DNA of 54,019 bases. Origin: Corallococcus carmarthensis. GTDB lineage: Bacteria > Myxococcota > Myxococcia > Myxococcales > Myxococcaceae. This document shows, in pieces, positions 18,097 to 22,287 of this stretch. The stretch spans positions 1 through 54,019 of the forward strand of contig NZ_RAWE01000049.1 in assembly GCF_003611695.1 (NCBI RefSeq), read 5' to 3'. Position 1 is the stretch's first letter. Each line of letters opens with the position of its first letter. The notes beneath the pieces are model-generated. The model saw only the letters and a list, made by a program, of their open reading frames with translations, was not told the origin of the DNA and made no database searches. A program made the position numbers and the translations under genes.

Positions 18097-18124
18097 CGCC
18101 CGCCGCCGCCTCACGCGGCGGGCG
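18097..18124. terminator. Bidirectional terminator-like hairpin
   Basis: 9-bp inverted repeat CGCCCGCCG / CGGCGGGCG with a 10-base loop, lying where the DHS-like gene and the pseudokinase gene converge. It overlaps the last codons of the pseudokinase. Confidence 0.5.
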
Positions 18125-19274
18125 TTGGCAGGTGCAGCACGCTCCCCGGTGGAAAGGCGCCCACGTCCATCTGGAACGCGCTCAGCACCGGGGCAGTCGC
18201 CGCGAGCGCCCGCTGGAACTCCGCCGCCGCCTCCGCGCCGCCGTAGTGGCCGCCCAGCCGCGCAGCGTGGGCGCGGAGGTCCACCTCCAGGTCCTCCGCG
18301 GTCGCGTAGCGCTCCGTCCGCTCCCGCCGCAGCAGCCGGTGGAGGATGGCGCGCAGCCCTGGCGACAGCCGGAACATCAGCGACTCCAGGTCCTCCGGCC
18401 GGTAGGTGGCGGCGTGCATCACCACGTCGGCGTACTCACCGGAGCCCTGCCCCGCCTGCGCCGCCACCATCATCCCCTGGAACACGCGCTTCGCGTCCGC
18501 GTCCGTCAGCCGTGCCTCCAGGTCGCCCATGAGGGCGCGCGGCAGGCTGTAGAGGTGCAGGCTCGTCGCCAGCTCCAGCAGGATGAGCCCCAGCGAGAAG
18601 AGATCCGACCGCGCGTCCGCCCCTTCCCCGAACAGCACCTCCGGCGCGCCGTAATACACCTCGCCGTGCGGGCGCGTGATGCTGGAGGGCGCCCGGCCCG
18701 GCAGCCGGGAGAAGACATCCCCCAGGTCCGTGAGCATCAGGGCACCCTCCGGCCCGAACCGGAGGCCCTGGGGATGCAGGTCGCGGTGCACGAAGCCCAG
18801 CGGCATGCCGCGCGCGTCTGTCTTTCCATGCAGGAACGCGAGCAGTGACGCGAGCTGGAGGCCCACGTGCACCAGGAAGGCCTCGGAATAGGAATGCACA
18901 TACACCAGCGGCAGCATCGCCACGTCATCCAGCGTGTAGCCGGGGACGTGCTCCCATTCGAGGTAGAGCATGTCGTCCACCTCGTGGCCGCCGTACAGCC
19001 GGGCGATGCGCGGATGTTCGAGCAGCCGTGAGAGCGCCAGCGTCTCCTGCAACCGCGCTCGCGGCTCCCTCGACAGGAATGCCTCCCCTCTTCGGAGGGA
19101 CAGCGCCTGGAGGAACACCGGCACAGGCTCACGCCCGGGCTGCCGCCTCACGGCCAGGAAGTGCTGCTCCCCATGGCCGCGCCGCCGCAGGATCCGCTCC
19201 AGCTCGAACACTTTGGACCCGGTCTTGAACAGCACTTCGGGAGGGGAAGGCTTCACCGTCCTGGAAGGACTCAT
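18111..19274 (-). CDS. Protein kinase-like protein, probable pseudokinase
   Basis: A 387-residue protein with the Ser/Thr kinase fold but lacking key residues. The glycine loop is poor (RRRGHGEQ), the beta-3 strand reads VFLQAL with Q57 where the ATP-anchoring Lys should be, and the catalytic loop is HRDLHPQG, with G170 replacing the metal-binding Asn. The HRD Asp (D165), a DLG motif (183-185), the alpha-C Glu candidate E77 and APE (GAPEV) remain. It likely binds a partner rather than phosphorylating. I chose the ATG at 19274 because AGGAG lies 10 bases upstream; a GTG at 19325 would add 17 residues. It is 117 bases downstream of the kinase-lipoprotein gene in the same direction, perhaps an operon. 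Confidence 0.85.
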   Translation of the reverse strand: MSPSRTVKPSPPEVLFKTGSKVFELERILRRRGHGEQHFLAVRRQPGREPVPVFLQALSLRRGEAFLSREPRARLQETLALSRLLEHPRIARLYGGHEVDDMLYLEWEHVPGYTLDDVAMLPLVYVHSYSEAFLVHVGLQLASLLAFLHGKTDARGMPLGFVHRDLHPQGLRFGPEGALMLTDLGDVFSRLPGRAPSSITRPHGEVYYGAPEVLFGEGADARSDLFSLGLILLELATSLHLYSLPRALMGDLEARLTDADAKRVFQGMMVAAQAGQGSGEYADVVMHAATYRPEDLESLMFRLSPGLRAILHRLLRRERTERYATAEDLEVDLRAHAARLGGHYGGAEAAAEFQRALAATAPVLSAFQMDVGAFPPGSVLHLPTPAA

Positions 19275-19391
19275 GCCGTGCGGGCTCCTGTGAGAACAAC
19301 GGCAGACTACTTTTTGAGTAGCCACATTCTCCAGGACCCGTCAGGTTGTATTAGAACGTTTCGCGCCTCGCGACCCTCCGACAAGCACGGT

Positions 19392-21326
19392 TCATGGGAA
19401 CGAGTTCACGACCGTATACGCGAAGGTGCGTGGCATCCGGACCGCGCCGGGCTTGGAACCCTCATTCCACTCAAGGCCATCAAAGTTCCCGTAGACGAAG
19501 CACACAGGATAGATACGCCCGTCTGGAAGTTCCGCCTTGGTGTAGCGGCCCGTCACCCGGCCCTCCCCCGTCCAGAGGCGCCCATACAGGCGGGTCCCGA
19601 CGGGCAGATCCCCGTACTGCTCGATGACGAGGCTGACAATGGGGCCATCGTGGACAATGAGTTCTTCCGACCCCCGGCCCGGCCGCGTGATGTCGGTATA
19701 GACGCTGCCGCTGCCGCCCTTGTTCAGGGAAAGCTTCCGCATGGCGTCCAGGGAACCCGCCGGGCACCGGCTCGCGTCGGGCCGCACCTGGGCGCCCGTG
19801 CAGGCCGTGAGGACGGCGGCGCCGACCGCCGCGGAGCAGCGCTTGAGTGTGCTGGACCGCGCGGGCATGGGGATGACGGCCGCCTGCTGCGGCGAATGGG
19901 GAGTCATGGCTTCCTTCTCCTGTGGAAAGGGGACGGGTGGGGAGGTGCCCGTCGATGACCTGCGAGCTTCTTCCGGTCCGGAACGGGACGCCATTTGCTG
20001 GACGACCCGCTCCTGGCTCACGGCCAGTGGGCTGCCCTCCCTCGCCAGGGTCCGCCGCAAGCTCCAGACCGTGAGGCCCGCGACAAGGGGGCCCACCAAC
20101 ATGACCGCGAGCGCACCCCAGACGAGGGGATGCGAACGCCCTCTCCTGACACGTCCCTGAAGCGCGGGAATCGACCGGGCTTCCGCGGCGGCCACCTTCG
20201 CGGGATCCCGCCGGCGCAGCTCGCGGGCCCCTCGCAGCCGGAGGGAGTCCTCCAGGTGCCGGGCCCGGGCATCCCGCAGGGCGATCTCCTGCCCCGGCAT
20301 CACGGGCCCCCGGACCTCATCCGCCTCCACCGTCGTACGTGAGCCACTGGCCGTCCGTTCGCGCCAGTCGAACAGCGGCGCGTCCCACCCCGGGCCTCCA
20401 TCCGCCAGTCGCTGGCGCAGCTCACCCGCCAGCAATGCCATGCTTTCGGGGCGCCGCTCCGGCTCGAAGGCAAGCATCCGCATCACGGCGTCCGACAGCC
20501 CTTCCGTCACGTGGGGGTTGAGGTCCCTCACGGCTCGCAGACCATGGGGCGCCGAGACTTCACGGGGAGCGCCCCACTGGGCGGCGGGGTACTGGTCCGT
20601 CAACAGGCGATAGAAGGTGACGCCGACCGCGTACAACTCGTCCGCCACGCAGTAGGTGTAAGGGCTGGCGGCACCGGGACGGCGCTCCGACAGCACGCGC
20701 CACATGAAGAGCTGGGGGCTGTAGTAGCGCGGACTGCCCGGTGGCAACCGGGCGGTGGCGGTGAGCGGGGGTGCTCCCGCGTACCAGCCAGCGCCCCAAT
20801 CCAGCACCTTCACCCTGCCATCCGGCGTGATCAGGACATTGTCGCCCTTGAAGTCCCGGTGCAGGGCTCCATGACGGTGCGCGGCAGCCAGGGCCTCCAA
20901 CACCTGCACCAACACGTTCGTCATCTGGCGGGCCGTGGGATTGCGGGCCAGTGCCCATACGTAGAGGGATTCTCCCTCCACGTACTCCATCACCAGGTAG
21001 GGGTGCTCCACGGGGCCGAGCCGCCAGACACCGTGGGAGATCAACCGCACCACGGAGCGGTGGCGCACGCGGGTCAGCAGTTCCGCCTCCCGCGCGAACC
21101 ACCGTTCGCCGGGGCGGCGGGACAACTTCAAGGCATACAGCCGCCCGCGAGAGCGGCCCACCCTGCGCACGGAATACGTGGTGCCGTAACCTCCCGCTCC
21201 CAGCCGTGCCATCACCTCCCAGCGGCCCACCTGTGTCCCAGGCAGCAACCATTCGGCGGACAGCAGGACCCGCCCCAGTACCGCCTCCGCATGGCGGAGC
21301 CCTAGCTCCGGCGACTCACTGCTCAC
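19392..21326 (-). CDS. Ser/Thr protein kinase with C-terminal lipoprotein-like domain
   Basis: A 644-residue envelope-spanning kinase. The catalytic domain looks complete: LGAGGYGTTY loop, K67 in YALKL, HRD at 156-158, N163 and DWG at 176-178. A single transmembrane helix lies at about 399-422, so residues after it should face the periplasm. From M474 on, the frame continues into what reads like a separate lipoprotein: it has its own AGGAG site, a basic-hydrophobic leader and the lipobox LTAC (C509), then a beta-rich domain of about 135 residues. The GTG start is chosen because it overlaps the upstream DUF2381 stop (GTGA) with AAAGGA 8 bases upstream; an ATG six codons earlier lacks a ribosome site. 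Confidence 0.85.
   Translation of the reverse strand: MSSESPELGLRHAEAVLGRVLLSAEWLLPGTQVGRWEVMARLGAGGYGTTYSVRRVGRSRGRLYALKLSRRPGERWFAREAELLTRVRHRSVVRLISHGVWRLGPVEHPYLVMEYVEGESLYVWALARNPTARQMTNVLVQVLEALAAAHRHGALHRDFKGDNVLITPDGRVKVLDWGAGWYAGAPPLTATARLPPGSPRYYSPQLFMWRVLSERRPGAASPYTYCVADELYAVGVTFYRLLTDQYPAAQWGAPREVSAPHGLRAVRDLNPHVTEGLSDAVMRMLAFEPERRPESMALLAGELRQRLADGGPGWDAPLFDWRERTASGSRTTVEADEVRGPVMPGQEIALRDARARHLEDSLRLRGARELRRRDPAKVAAAEARSIPALQGRVRRGRSHPLVWGALAVMLVGPLVAGLTVWSLRRTLAREGSPLAVSQERVVQQMASRSGPEEARRSSTGTSPPVPFPQEKEAMTPHSPQQAAVIPMPARSSTLKRCSAAVGAAVLTACTGAQVRPDASRCPAGSLDAMRKLSLNKGGSGSVYTDITRPGRGSEELIVHDGPIVSLVIEQYGDLPVGTRLYGRLWTGEGRVTGRYTKAELPDGRIYPVCFVYGNFDGLEWNEGSKPGAVRMPRTFAYTVVNSFP
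19905..19921 (-). promoter_or_regulatory. Internal ribosome site and ATG inside the kinase gene
   Basis: AGGAG (19917-19921) sits 9 bases before an in-frame ATG (19905-19907). Initiation here would yield a free 171-residue protein with a lipoprotein signal peptide ending LTAC. This could give two products from one gene, or be the scar of a fusion of two genes. Confidence 0.45.
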
Positions 21327-22254
21327 AGGGACAGTCCTTTCCATCGCACGGAGCGATTGCCTTCCTGATTCCAGACTTCCAGCACGTAGAGAGCCTGCGG
21401 CTCCAGGTCCTTCGGCATGTGCCATTCCAGGACCACCTGTCCACTCGCACCGGGTGGCAGACGTGCCTCCAGCATCCGCACTGGAATCTCCTGGATGATG
21501 AGGTCTTCTTTTCCATCCGCCCCCAGCCGGGTGAGCCGTCCCACGCCGGGCACCCACGGGGCAGCGTCTGGTGAGTTGCGCAGGGCGAAGGCCATCACTC
21601 GGCTTCTGATGTGGCTGTAGAGGAGAGCACTCCCCACGACCTCCAGGCCTGGTGTTTCAACAGGTAGGGGAGACCGATCCACTGACACCGGCTCCGGCCC
21701 CAGGGCCCCCGTGAGTACGCGCCCGCCAGTCCGGTCTGGTCACACTGCGCCCGCAGGGTGGCGAGCCCCGCCTCTGCGGCGGCGCACCGTCCCCGCAACA
21801 GGGACAGCTCCTCGCCCAGGTCTTCCGCGGACAGCGCATGGCGGGACACCTCCACCACGGTGTCCACCTCCTTGGGGTCGGTGACGAGCAGGAACGACAC
21901 ATGCCGGGGCGCGTCCTCCCCCGCGAAGCGCACGGTGACGAGCGGCCGGGACGCGTCCGGCATGGCCACGGCGGGCCGCAGCACCATCACGCCCGGATAC
22001 ACCTTCACCTGGGCGAACAGCGGCGCCAGGGCCTTCGCGTCCACGGAGGCTGGCAGGATGTCGTCGTTGAACACGACCGTGGTGACCGCCCCGGGAGCGA
22101 CACGCAGCAGGTGCAGCGTCGCGGCGTCTTCCGCGCGCACCACCAGCTTCCGCTCCCGAGGGACGCGCGGTCCAGGGGCCGAGGCCCATGCCGGAACCAC
22201 CGCACCCAGCAGCATCAGCAGCATTGGACAGACAACCACACGGGGCGTAAGCAC
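21323..22254 (-). pseudogene. DUF2381 (TIGR02268) family protein, frameshifted
   Basis: The protein reads as a typical DUF2381 protein only if one frame change is allowed. The first frame gives a signal peptide (LLMLLGAVVPAWASA) and the N-terminal half including DPKEVDT and a helical segment ending TGLAG. The second frame continues VLTGALG and then the beta-rich half to a stop at 21323. One base appears to be missing near 21720-21722, in a GCGCG run; restoring it gives GLAGAVLTGAL, the usual family pattern. The stop is coupled to the kinase start (GTGA), which supports the second frame. I chose the GTG at 22254, behind GGAGG. DUF2381 proteins are secreted paralogues of myxobacteria with unknown function. 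It may be a real mutation or a sequencing error. Confidence 0.8.
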
Positions 22255-22287
22255 GCGGGGCAACCTCCAGCATCGCACCCTAACAGA

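Follow-up and report, generated by a model that had tools for sequence, protein, structure and literature searches.

We consider it reasonably probable that a single gene of the myxobacterium Corallococcus carmarthensis makes two proteins, an envelope-spanning receptor kinase and a shorter, lipid-anchored form of that protein, with which the kinase co-assembles. The window, the whole 54,019-nt stretch of contig NZ_RAWE01000049.1 that was analysed, holds one open frame that covers both parts, an internal Shine-Dalgarno (SD) sequence, start codon and lipobox that are conserved among homologues, and a neighbouring DUF2381 gene. From these features we infer synthesis of the short form, its lipidation and outer-membrane placement, co-assembly and signalling. 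In the mechanism that we propose, translation from the GTG at 21326 would yield a kinase held in the inner membrane by its transmembrane helix (TM1), with a Pro-rich periplasmic linker leading to a domain that is predicted to resemble the VirB10 C-terminal domain and would reach towards the outer membrane. Translation from an internal ATG (19905-19907) would yield the C-terminal domain alone, supplied with a signal peptide, as a lipoprotein. The long form and the lipid-anchored short form, both from one mRNA, would then co-assemble with the DUF2381 protein.

Organization of the fused gene

Re-reading the sequence, we found the motifs and coordinates of the earlier note to be correct, namely an intact kinase, a membrane helix, an in-frame AGGAG-ATG, a basic-hydrophobic leader and LTAC. 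The fused gene (19392..21326, minus strand, as are all its parts below) is an open frame of 644 aa that runs from GTG (21326-21324) to a stop at 19394-19392. We accepted this GTG as the kinase start because AAAGGA precedes it by 8 nt and because it shares nucleotides with the TGA that ends the upstream DUF2381 frame; the lipobox Cys is C509 when counted from it and C515 from an alternative ATG at 21344. The protein kinase domain (20430..21218, residues 42-304) matches PF00069 at E 3.3e-26 and 92.7 bits, exceeding the curated cut-off of 31.7, and carries the catalytic motifs YALK, HRDFKGDN and LDWG. Then come TM1, LVWGALAVMLVGPLVAGL (20073..20126; hydropathy 2.19 for the 18-mer), with an N flank rich in Lys/Arg, and a Pro-rich linker that extends to the internal start (19908..20072). 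Across the linkers of the family, a median of 72 residues separates TM1 from the leader core, and Pro makes up 19% of residues vs 8% in the kinase.

After TM1, and in the same frame, CAGGAGAAGGAAGCC-ATG is followed by a leader (Lys-Arg, hydrophobic core) and then by LTAC. The putative internal SD (19912..19921) overlaps a purine run; in it AGGAG (19917-19921) lies 9 nt, and AAGGA (19912-19916) 4 nt, from the candidate lipoprotein start at 19905..19907. The predicted lipoprotein signal peptide (19803..19907) has 35 residues, comprising a long n-region, Lys-Arg and the hydrophobic core, and ends in the lipobox LTAC (19800..19811; Cys codon 19800-19802). The mature lipoprotein domain would span 19395..19802.

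Directly 3' of the fused gene lies a kinase-like gene (18111-19325) that has HRDLHPQG in place of HRDxKxxN. Relatives of it follow 7 of 15 kinase-lipoprotein loci of the same genome, two of which are cut by contig ends, as well as L183 and L184. Its product is possibly a pseudokinase partner.

Homologues and genomic distribution

Homology searches place the window gene in a large Myxococcaceae family. Its C-terminal part matches 20 places in its own genome, and a genus search returned a match in 16 of 16 genomes at E 1e-30. Class-wide, the domain occurs in at least 64 of 145 genomes and at least 8 of 48 genera. We assembled 19 places from the window's own genome with their flanks, 120 places (among the matches listed) from 59 genomes of the family, and the loci of the genus search. 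In this discovery set the C-terminal domain was found in 164 frames, 133 of them in one frame with kinase sequence (hereafter fused) and 31 otherwise; the 133 include four loci whose kinase is broken further upstream (L120, L132, L133 and L163) and one cut by a contig end (L182). Loci L001-L020 and L191-L198 were excluded from the counts as second copies of loci already counted or present with other flanks. L183-L190, which largely duplicate discovery-set genes, served for structures and DUF2381 and not for conservation counts. A held-out set comprised 51 places from previously unused genomes, 48 with fused frames, belonging to the same family and partly to the same genera as the discovery set. 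All of these homologues are related by descent, so the counts are not independent. This myxobacterial gene also turns up at L188, in a record labelled Comamonas sp. KCTC 72670, a label that looks wrong.

A DUF2381 profile, rebuilt once from its own matches for these adjacency counts, matched upstream on the same strand in 151 of 181 fused loci and downstream in 5, the other 25 having less than 600 nt of upstream sequence. DUF2381 adjoins the kinase gene in 155 of 155 fused loci whose upstream sequence reaches 600 nt or more. In the window, the DUF2381 (TIGR02268) gene also lies on the minus strand. Its N-terminal piece (21595..22278; TIGR02268 E 2.4e-31) comprises a signal peptide and a domain that, from the predicted fold of the L183 homologue, resembles the N-terminal domain of VirB9. 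Its C-terminal piece (21323..21688; TIGR02268 E 1.2e-10), intact in L183, is in a different frame, and its stop overlaps the kinase GTG. The gene as a whole (21323-22278) is thus split over two frames, whereas the L183 homologue is a single frame, and a frameshift or an assembly error would account for the split.

Separate lipoprotein genes and broken kinase frames

The earlier note had proposed a comparison with homologues in which the two parts are separate genes, and lipoprotein-only genes were indeed found. Thirteen stand-alone loci show no kinase but have a DUF2381 gene directly upstream, on the same strand, and 8 further stand-alone homologues have neither DUF2381 nor kinase. In nine stand-alone loci that we examined, the distance from the DUF2381 stop to the Cys codon is 63-325 nt. 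A tree of 209 domains, built on few columns and with many unresolved forks, requires 3 changes between stand-alone genes and the rest, and we draw no origin from it. At L165 (1581-3097) and L166 (1514-3030), DUF2381 is followed by a TM segment, a linker with SD-ATG and the lipoprotein domain, and no kinase was found there.

These loci bear on an alternative that we think unlikely. The lipoprotein made from the internal start could be independent and have DUF2381 as its sole partner, the fusion to the kinase being incidental and the long form having no envelope-spanning role. DUF2381-lipoprotein pairs without a kinase fit this reading, as do loci in which the lipoprotein frame is open and the kinase frame is broken or not found (L113, L120, L132, L133 and L163, and also L164, L171, L180 and L232). 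However, the linker is in frame with the kinase in 133 of the 164 frames that contain the C-terminal domain, four of which have a broken kinase, and in 48 of 51 in the held-out set. Both fractions speak against an incidental fusion, because about one third would be expected without selection for it. Furthermore, the broken cases resemble frameshifts within the kinase or TM, perhaps sequencing errors, rather than clean separate genes. L120, L132 and L163 break at an almost identical position of the kinase profile. We considered L164, L171, L180 and L232 as clean pairs of a kinase gene and a lipoprotein gene and rejected them, since their frame changes near or after the TM resemble frameshifts.

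Conservation of the internal start

We scored an exact 5-nt SD with a spacing of 3-11 nt to an in-frame start codon (ATG, GTG or TTG) located between 60 and 15 codons ahead of the lipobox Cys. This test was devised when a weak duplex-energy result and the codon patterns were already known, and it was then fixed and rerun on the held-out genomes. In the discovery set, 116 of 133 fused homologues have such a start in the linker, compared with 47.6 +/- 4.3 (maximum 60) in 200 codon shuffles that keep the amino acids fixed. The other two reading frames yielded 1 of 133 each, eight 45-codon windows further upstream 9-30 of 128-133, and three windows in the C-terminal domain 41-49 of 133. Among the held-out fused genes, 31 of 48 passed (shuffles 17.7 +/- 2.8, maximum 27 in 500), with 0 of 48 in each of the other frames; among those less than 80% identical to the discovery set, 27 of 36 passed vs 14.9 +/- 2.6 in shuffles (maximum 21).

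Reducing redundancy left the signal in place down to 50% identity. With one gene per cluster at 70% identity, 31 of 37 passed vs 14.2 +/- 2.3, above all 500 shuffles, and representatives at 60% and 50% identity (20 of 25 and 13 of 15) likewise each lay above all 500 shuffles. At 45% identity, 7 of 9 representatives passed, which is not above the shuffles (maximum 8).

Individual codons point in the same direction. Every gene of the KG[S]..X class encodes its Gly as GGA (33 of 33; background 0.14), in what is the least variable column among 30 for Gly, and the Val at the start-codon slot is GTG in 29 of 29 (background 0.53), the least variable of 17 Val columns; Lys is AAA in 33 of 33 (background 0.085), with two other Lys columns equally invariant. 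For the K[ED]G..X class, the Glu codon is GAA in 54 of 54 (background 0.27), the least variable of 18 Glu columns. The slot is ATG in 21 of 21 genes of the window gene's own class. These class counts misplace five genes (L042, L044, L055, L056 and L078), in all of which the SD test sees SD and ATG. The held-out genes show the same codons, with AAAGGA in 10 of 10, GAA in 21 of 21 and GTG for the slot Val in 29 of 29. Across clades the codon varies among ATG, GTG and TTG, yet it remains a start codon. In one K-E-S clade, AAGGA is replaced by AAAGAAAG ahead of the GTG, and the g24 orthologues of the window gene retain the ATG with a weak SD.

A competing account has the full-length protein as the only product, with the SD-like string explained as a protein motif (K-E-G-S, K-G-S-P or E-K-x-A-M) and the leader as a further hydrophobic segment. 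The shuffles show that amino acids alone yield SD and start in about one third of genes, and a generic test of best duplex energy was weak (mean -7.49 vs -5.77 kcal/mol, median per-gene p 0.286), both of which favour this account. Against it, the codons of the SD and of the slot are fixed beyond what the amino acids require, the 116 observed cases far exceed the shuffle maximum of 60 with an excess that recurs in the held-out set, and the slot residue varies among clades while the codon remains one for a start. The lipobox Cys, moreover, is conserved in 181 of 181 fused homologues. We regard a single full-length product as quite improbable. By the SD test and by codon usage, nucleotide conservation of the internal SD and start exceeds what the amino acids need.

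Conservation is not uniform. The earlier note had held that homologues keeping the fused part and losing the ribosome site or the lipobox Cys would speak against two products. Most members show no such loss, and the Cys is retained throughout, but the 5-nt SD is absent from 17 of 133 discovery genes and 17 of 48 held-out genes. A 4-nt core, picked post hoc, is present in 128 of 133 (shuffles 80.4, maximum 93) and in 38 of 48 held-out genes (29.2, maximum 37). Together with the lipobox Cys and the separate-gene homologues, the conserved internal SD and start support, at the level of sequence, the earlier proposal that one gene gives two products.

Lipobox, leader and topology

The residue that follows the conserved Cys column in the 181 fused homologues is Pro, Thr, Ala, Ser, Gly, Ile or Val and never Asp. 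A PROSITE-type lipoprotein pattern fits 118 of 133 discovery genes and only 23 of 48 held-out genes. The signal peptides of the family are long, at 24-52 residues, which counts against the lipoprotein reading. Inside the domain, two Cys are conserved in 132 of 133 fused genes. Of the 181 fused homologues, 165 have a second Cys 5-18 residues N-terminal to that of the lipobox (19839-19841 in the window).

Both hydrophobic segments carry the same charge pattern. Lys+Arg are in excess on the N side of TM1 in 127 of 133 genes and of the leader in 105 of 133, with equality in 22, in counts that place the Cys by score and in 4 of 181 genes chose a Cys other than the aligned one. TM1 and leader are thus both charged for an N-in/C-out orientation, which one chain cannot satisfy for both and two separate products can. 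Lgt and LspA act on a lipobox helix in this usual topology. The second idea of the earlier note, that the full-length chain is cleaved at the lipobox so that the kinase is left behind and the sensor anchored, is very improbable on this charge argument, since the lipobox helix of a single chain would not stand in the usual orientation for the lipoprotein enzymes and cleavage would make the internal start unnecessary, even though the lipobox Cys lies within the full-length chain of every fused homologue.

Predicted folds of the lipoprotein domain and of DUF2381

The lipoprotein domain has no sequence match in Pfam, NCBIfam or PDB (PDB chance rows only, best E 0.21). An AlphaFold2 model of the domain from 9 sequences reached pLDDT 85 and pTM 0.81. 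Foldseek placed entries of type IV outer-membrane cores at ranks 1-23 (best E 4.9e-4), and a fold comparison put 14 entries, from type IV core complexes or ComB10, at Z scores between 9.2 and 6.7, the next row being at 2.8. Several of the matched structure titles name VirB10, CagY or ComB10; the remaining matched chains we take to be VirB10. In profile comparison with hhalign, the domain matched seven Myxococcota VirB10 domains at E 2.6e-4 and a probability of 43%, against controls at E 0.059 to 0.85; without realignment the values were E 0.0041 and 3%, with the control of DUF2381 vs the domain at 0.025. PF03743 (TrbI/VirB10) had no match at E 10 in the window's genome, nor in the Pfam scan of the domain. 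The antenna helices of VirB10 form the outer-membrane pore. They are absent from the domain model, whose sole helix comprises residues 17-23. For residues 19-134 of the lipoprotein domain, the predicted fold is that of the outer-membrane C-terminal domain of VirB10.

A VirB10-like fold led us to guess VirB9 for DUF2381 before its fold was tested. We modelled the L183 homologue, which matches Pfam DUF2381 at E 1.5e-83, from 7 sequences (pLDDT 83, pTM 0.49). Type IV core entries took VIA ranks 1-7 and 9 at Z 11.5 to 8.9, and single-domain rows covered DUF2381 residues 1-106 at Z 11.1 to 10.4. Some of the matched structures carry VirB9 or CagX in their titles, and the remaining chains are presumably VirB9/CagX. 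For the second domain of DUF2381, NPC2-like and further Ig-like folds were matches at least as good as the C-terminal domain of VirB9. Profile-profile comparison of DUF2381 with VirB9 gave no match (hhalign E 0.2), and the Pfam scan of the homologue returned DUF2381 plus one weak chance row at E 10, with no PF03524. The N-terminal domain of DUF2381 is predicted to have the fold of the VirB9 N-terminal domain. The likeness to VirB9 and VirB10 thus rests on predicted folds. TrbI and CagX families had no match in the window's genome; of 193 genomes in a phylum sample, 7 carry the canonical VirB10 family, the identical seven carry that of VirB9, and the window's genome is not one of them.

These predictions suggest a broader evolutionary reading, to which we give about an even chance. 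Myxococcaceae would have reworked a type IV outer-membrane core into paralogous envelope-spanning receptor kinases, in which DUF2381 is the VirB9-like part and the end of the kinase, also made as a lipoprotein, is the VirB10-like part. The two forms would co-assemble, and one mRNA would set the ratio of signalling to anchoring.

Relation to known systems

Myxobacterial kinase repertoires are large, and their outer sensors are mostly unexplained. For one kinase family, our analysis adds a predicted fold, a candidate partner and a putative second gene product that is hidden from standard annotation, and it gives DUF2381 a testable structural identity. If the proposal is true, a single frame feeds two membranes, and parts of a secretion machine have been reused for signalling. 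Taken singly, internal in-frame starts, receptor kinases and VirB9/VirB10 are all known already; in the open-access literature we found no account of their combination, with VirB9/VirB10-like parts, in one system, and no paper describing DUF2381. The upstream gene belongs to the Myxococcus paralogous family TIGR02268 (Pfam DUF2381), a family without an attached function, and its VirB9-like reading is new here.

The kinase resembles PknB-type receptor Ser/Thr kinases in its PF00069 domain, single TM helix and extracytoplasmic C-terminal domain. In contrast to these, it scores far below the cut-off of the PASTA kinase model (111 of 450 bits), its outer domain is unnamed in Pfam and NCBIfam, and it contains a putative internal lipoprotein start.

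VirB10 is described as a protein that extends from the cytoplasm to the outer membrane and joins VirB7 and VirB9 in the type IV core complex (PMC12624023). The present locus is like that core in having adjacent products with predicted folds of the VirB9 N-terminal and VirB10 C-terminal domains, and in combining an inner-membrane helix, a long linker, an outer-membrane-directed domain and a lipoprotein (PMC12624023). It differs in that a kinase replaces the cytoplasmic part of VirB10, the model is without the helical antenna, the lipoprotein would be the VirB10-like domain itself, and no TrbI/CagX family gene was found in the genome.

Internal initiation gives rise to the short form of SpaO. 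In the Salmonella type III sorting platform, the full-length SpaO is accompanied by a short form, its own C-terminal part, that binds the long form in the machine (PMC13059759). The gene studied here would likewise give a long form and a C-terminal short form, whose binding to the long form we propose by analogy with SpaO (PMC13059759). Unlike cytosolic SpaO, the short form here has a predicted lipoprotein signal peptide, and the two products would occupy different membranes.
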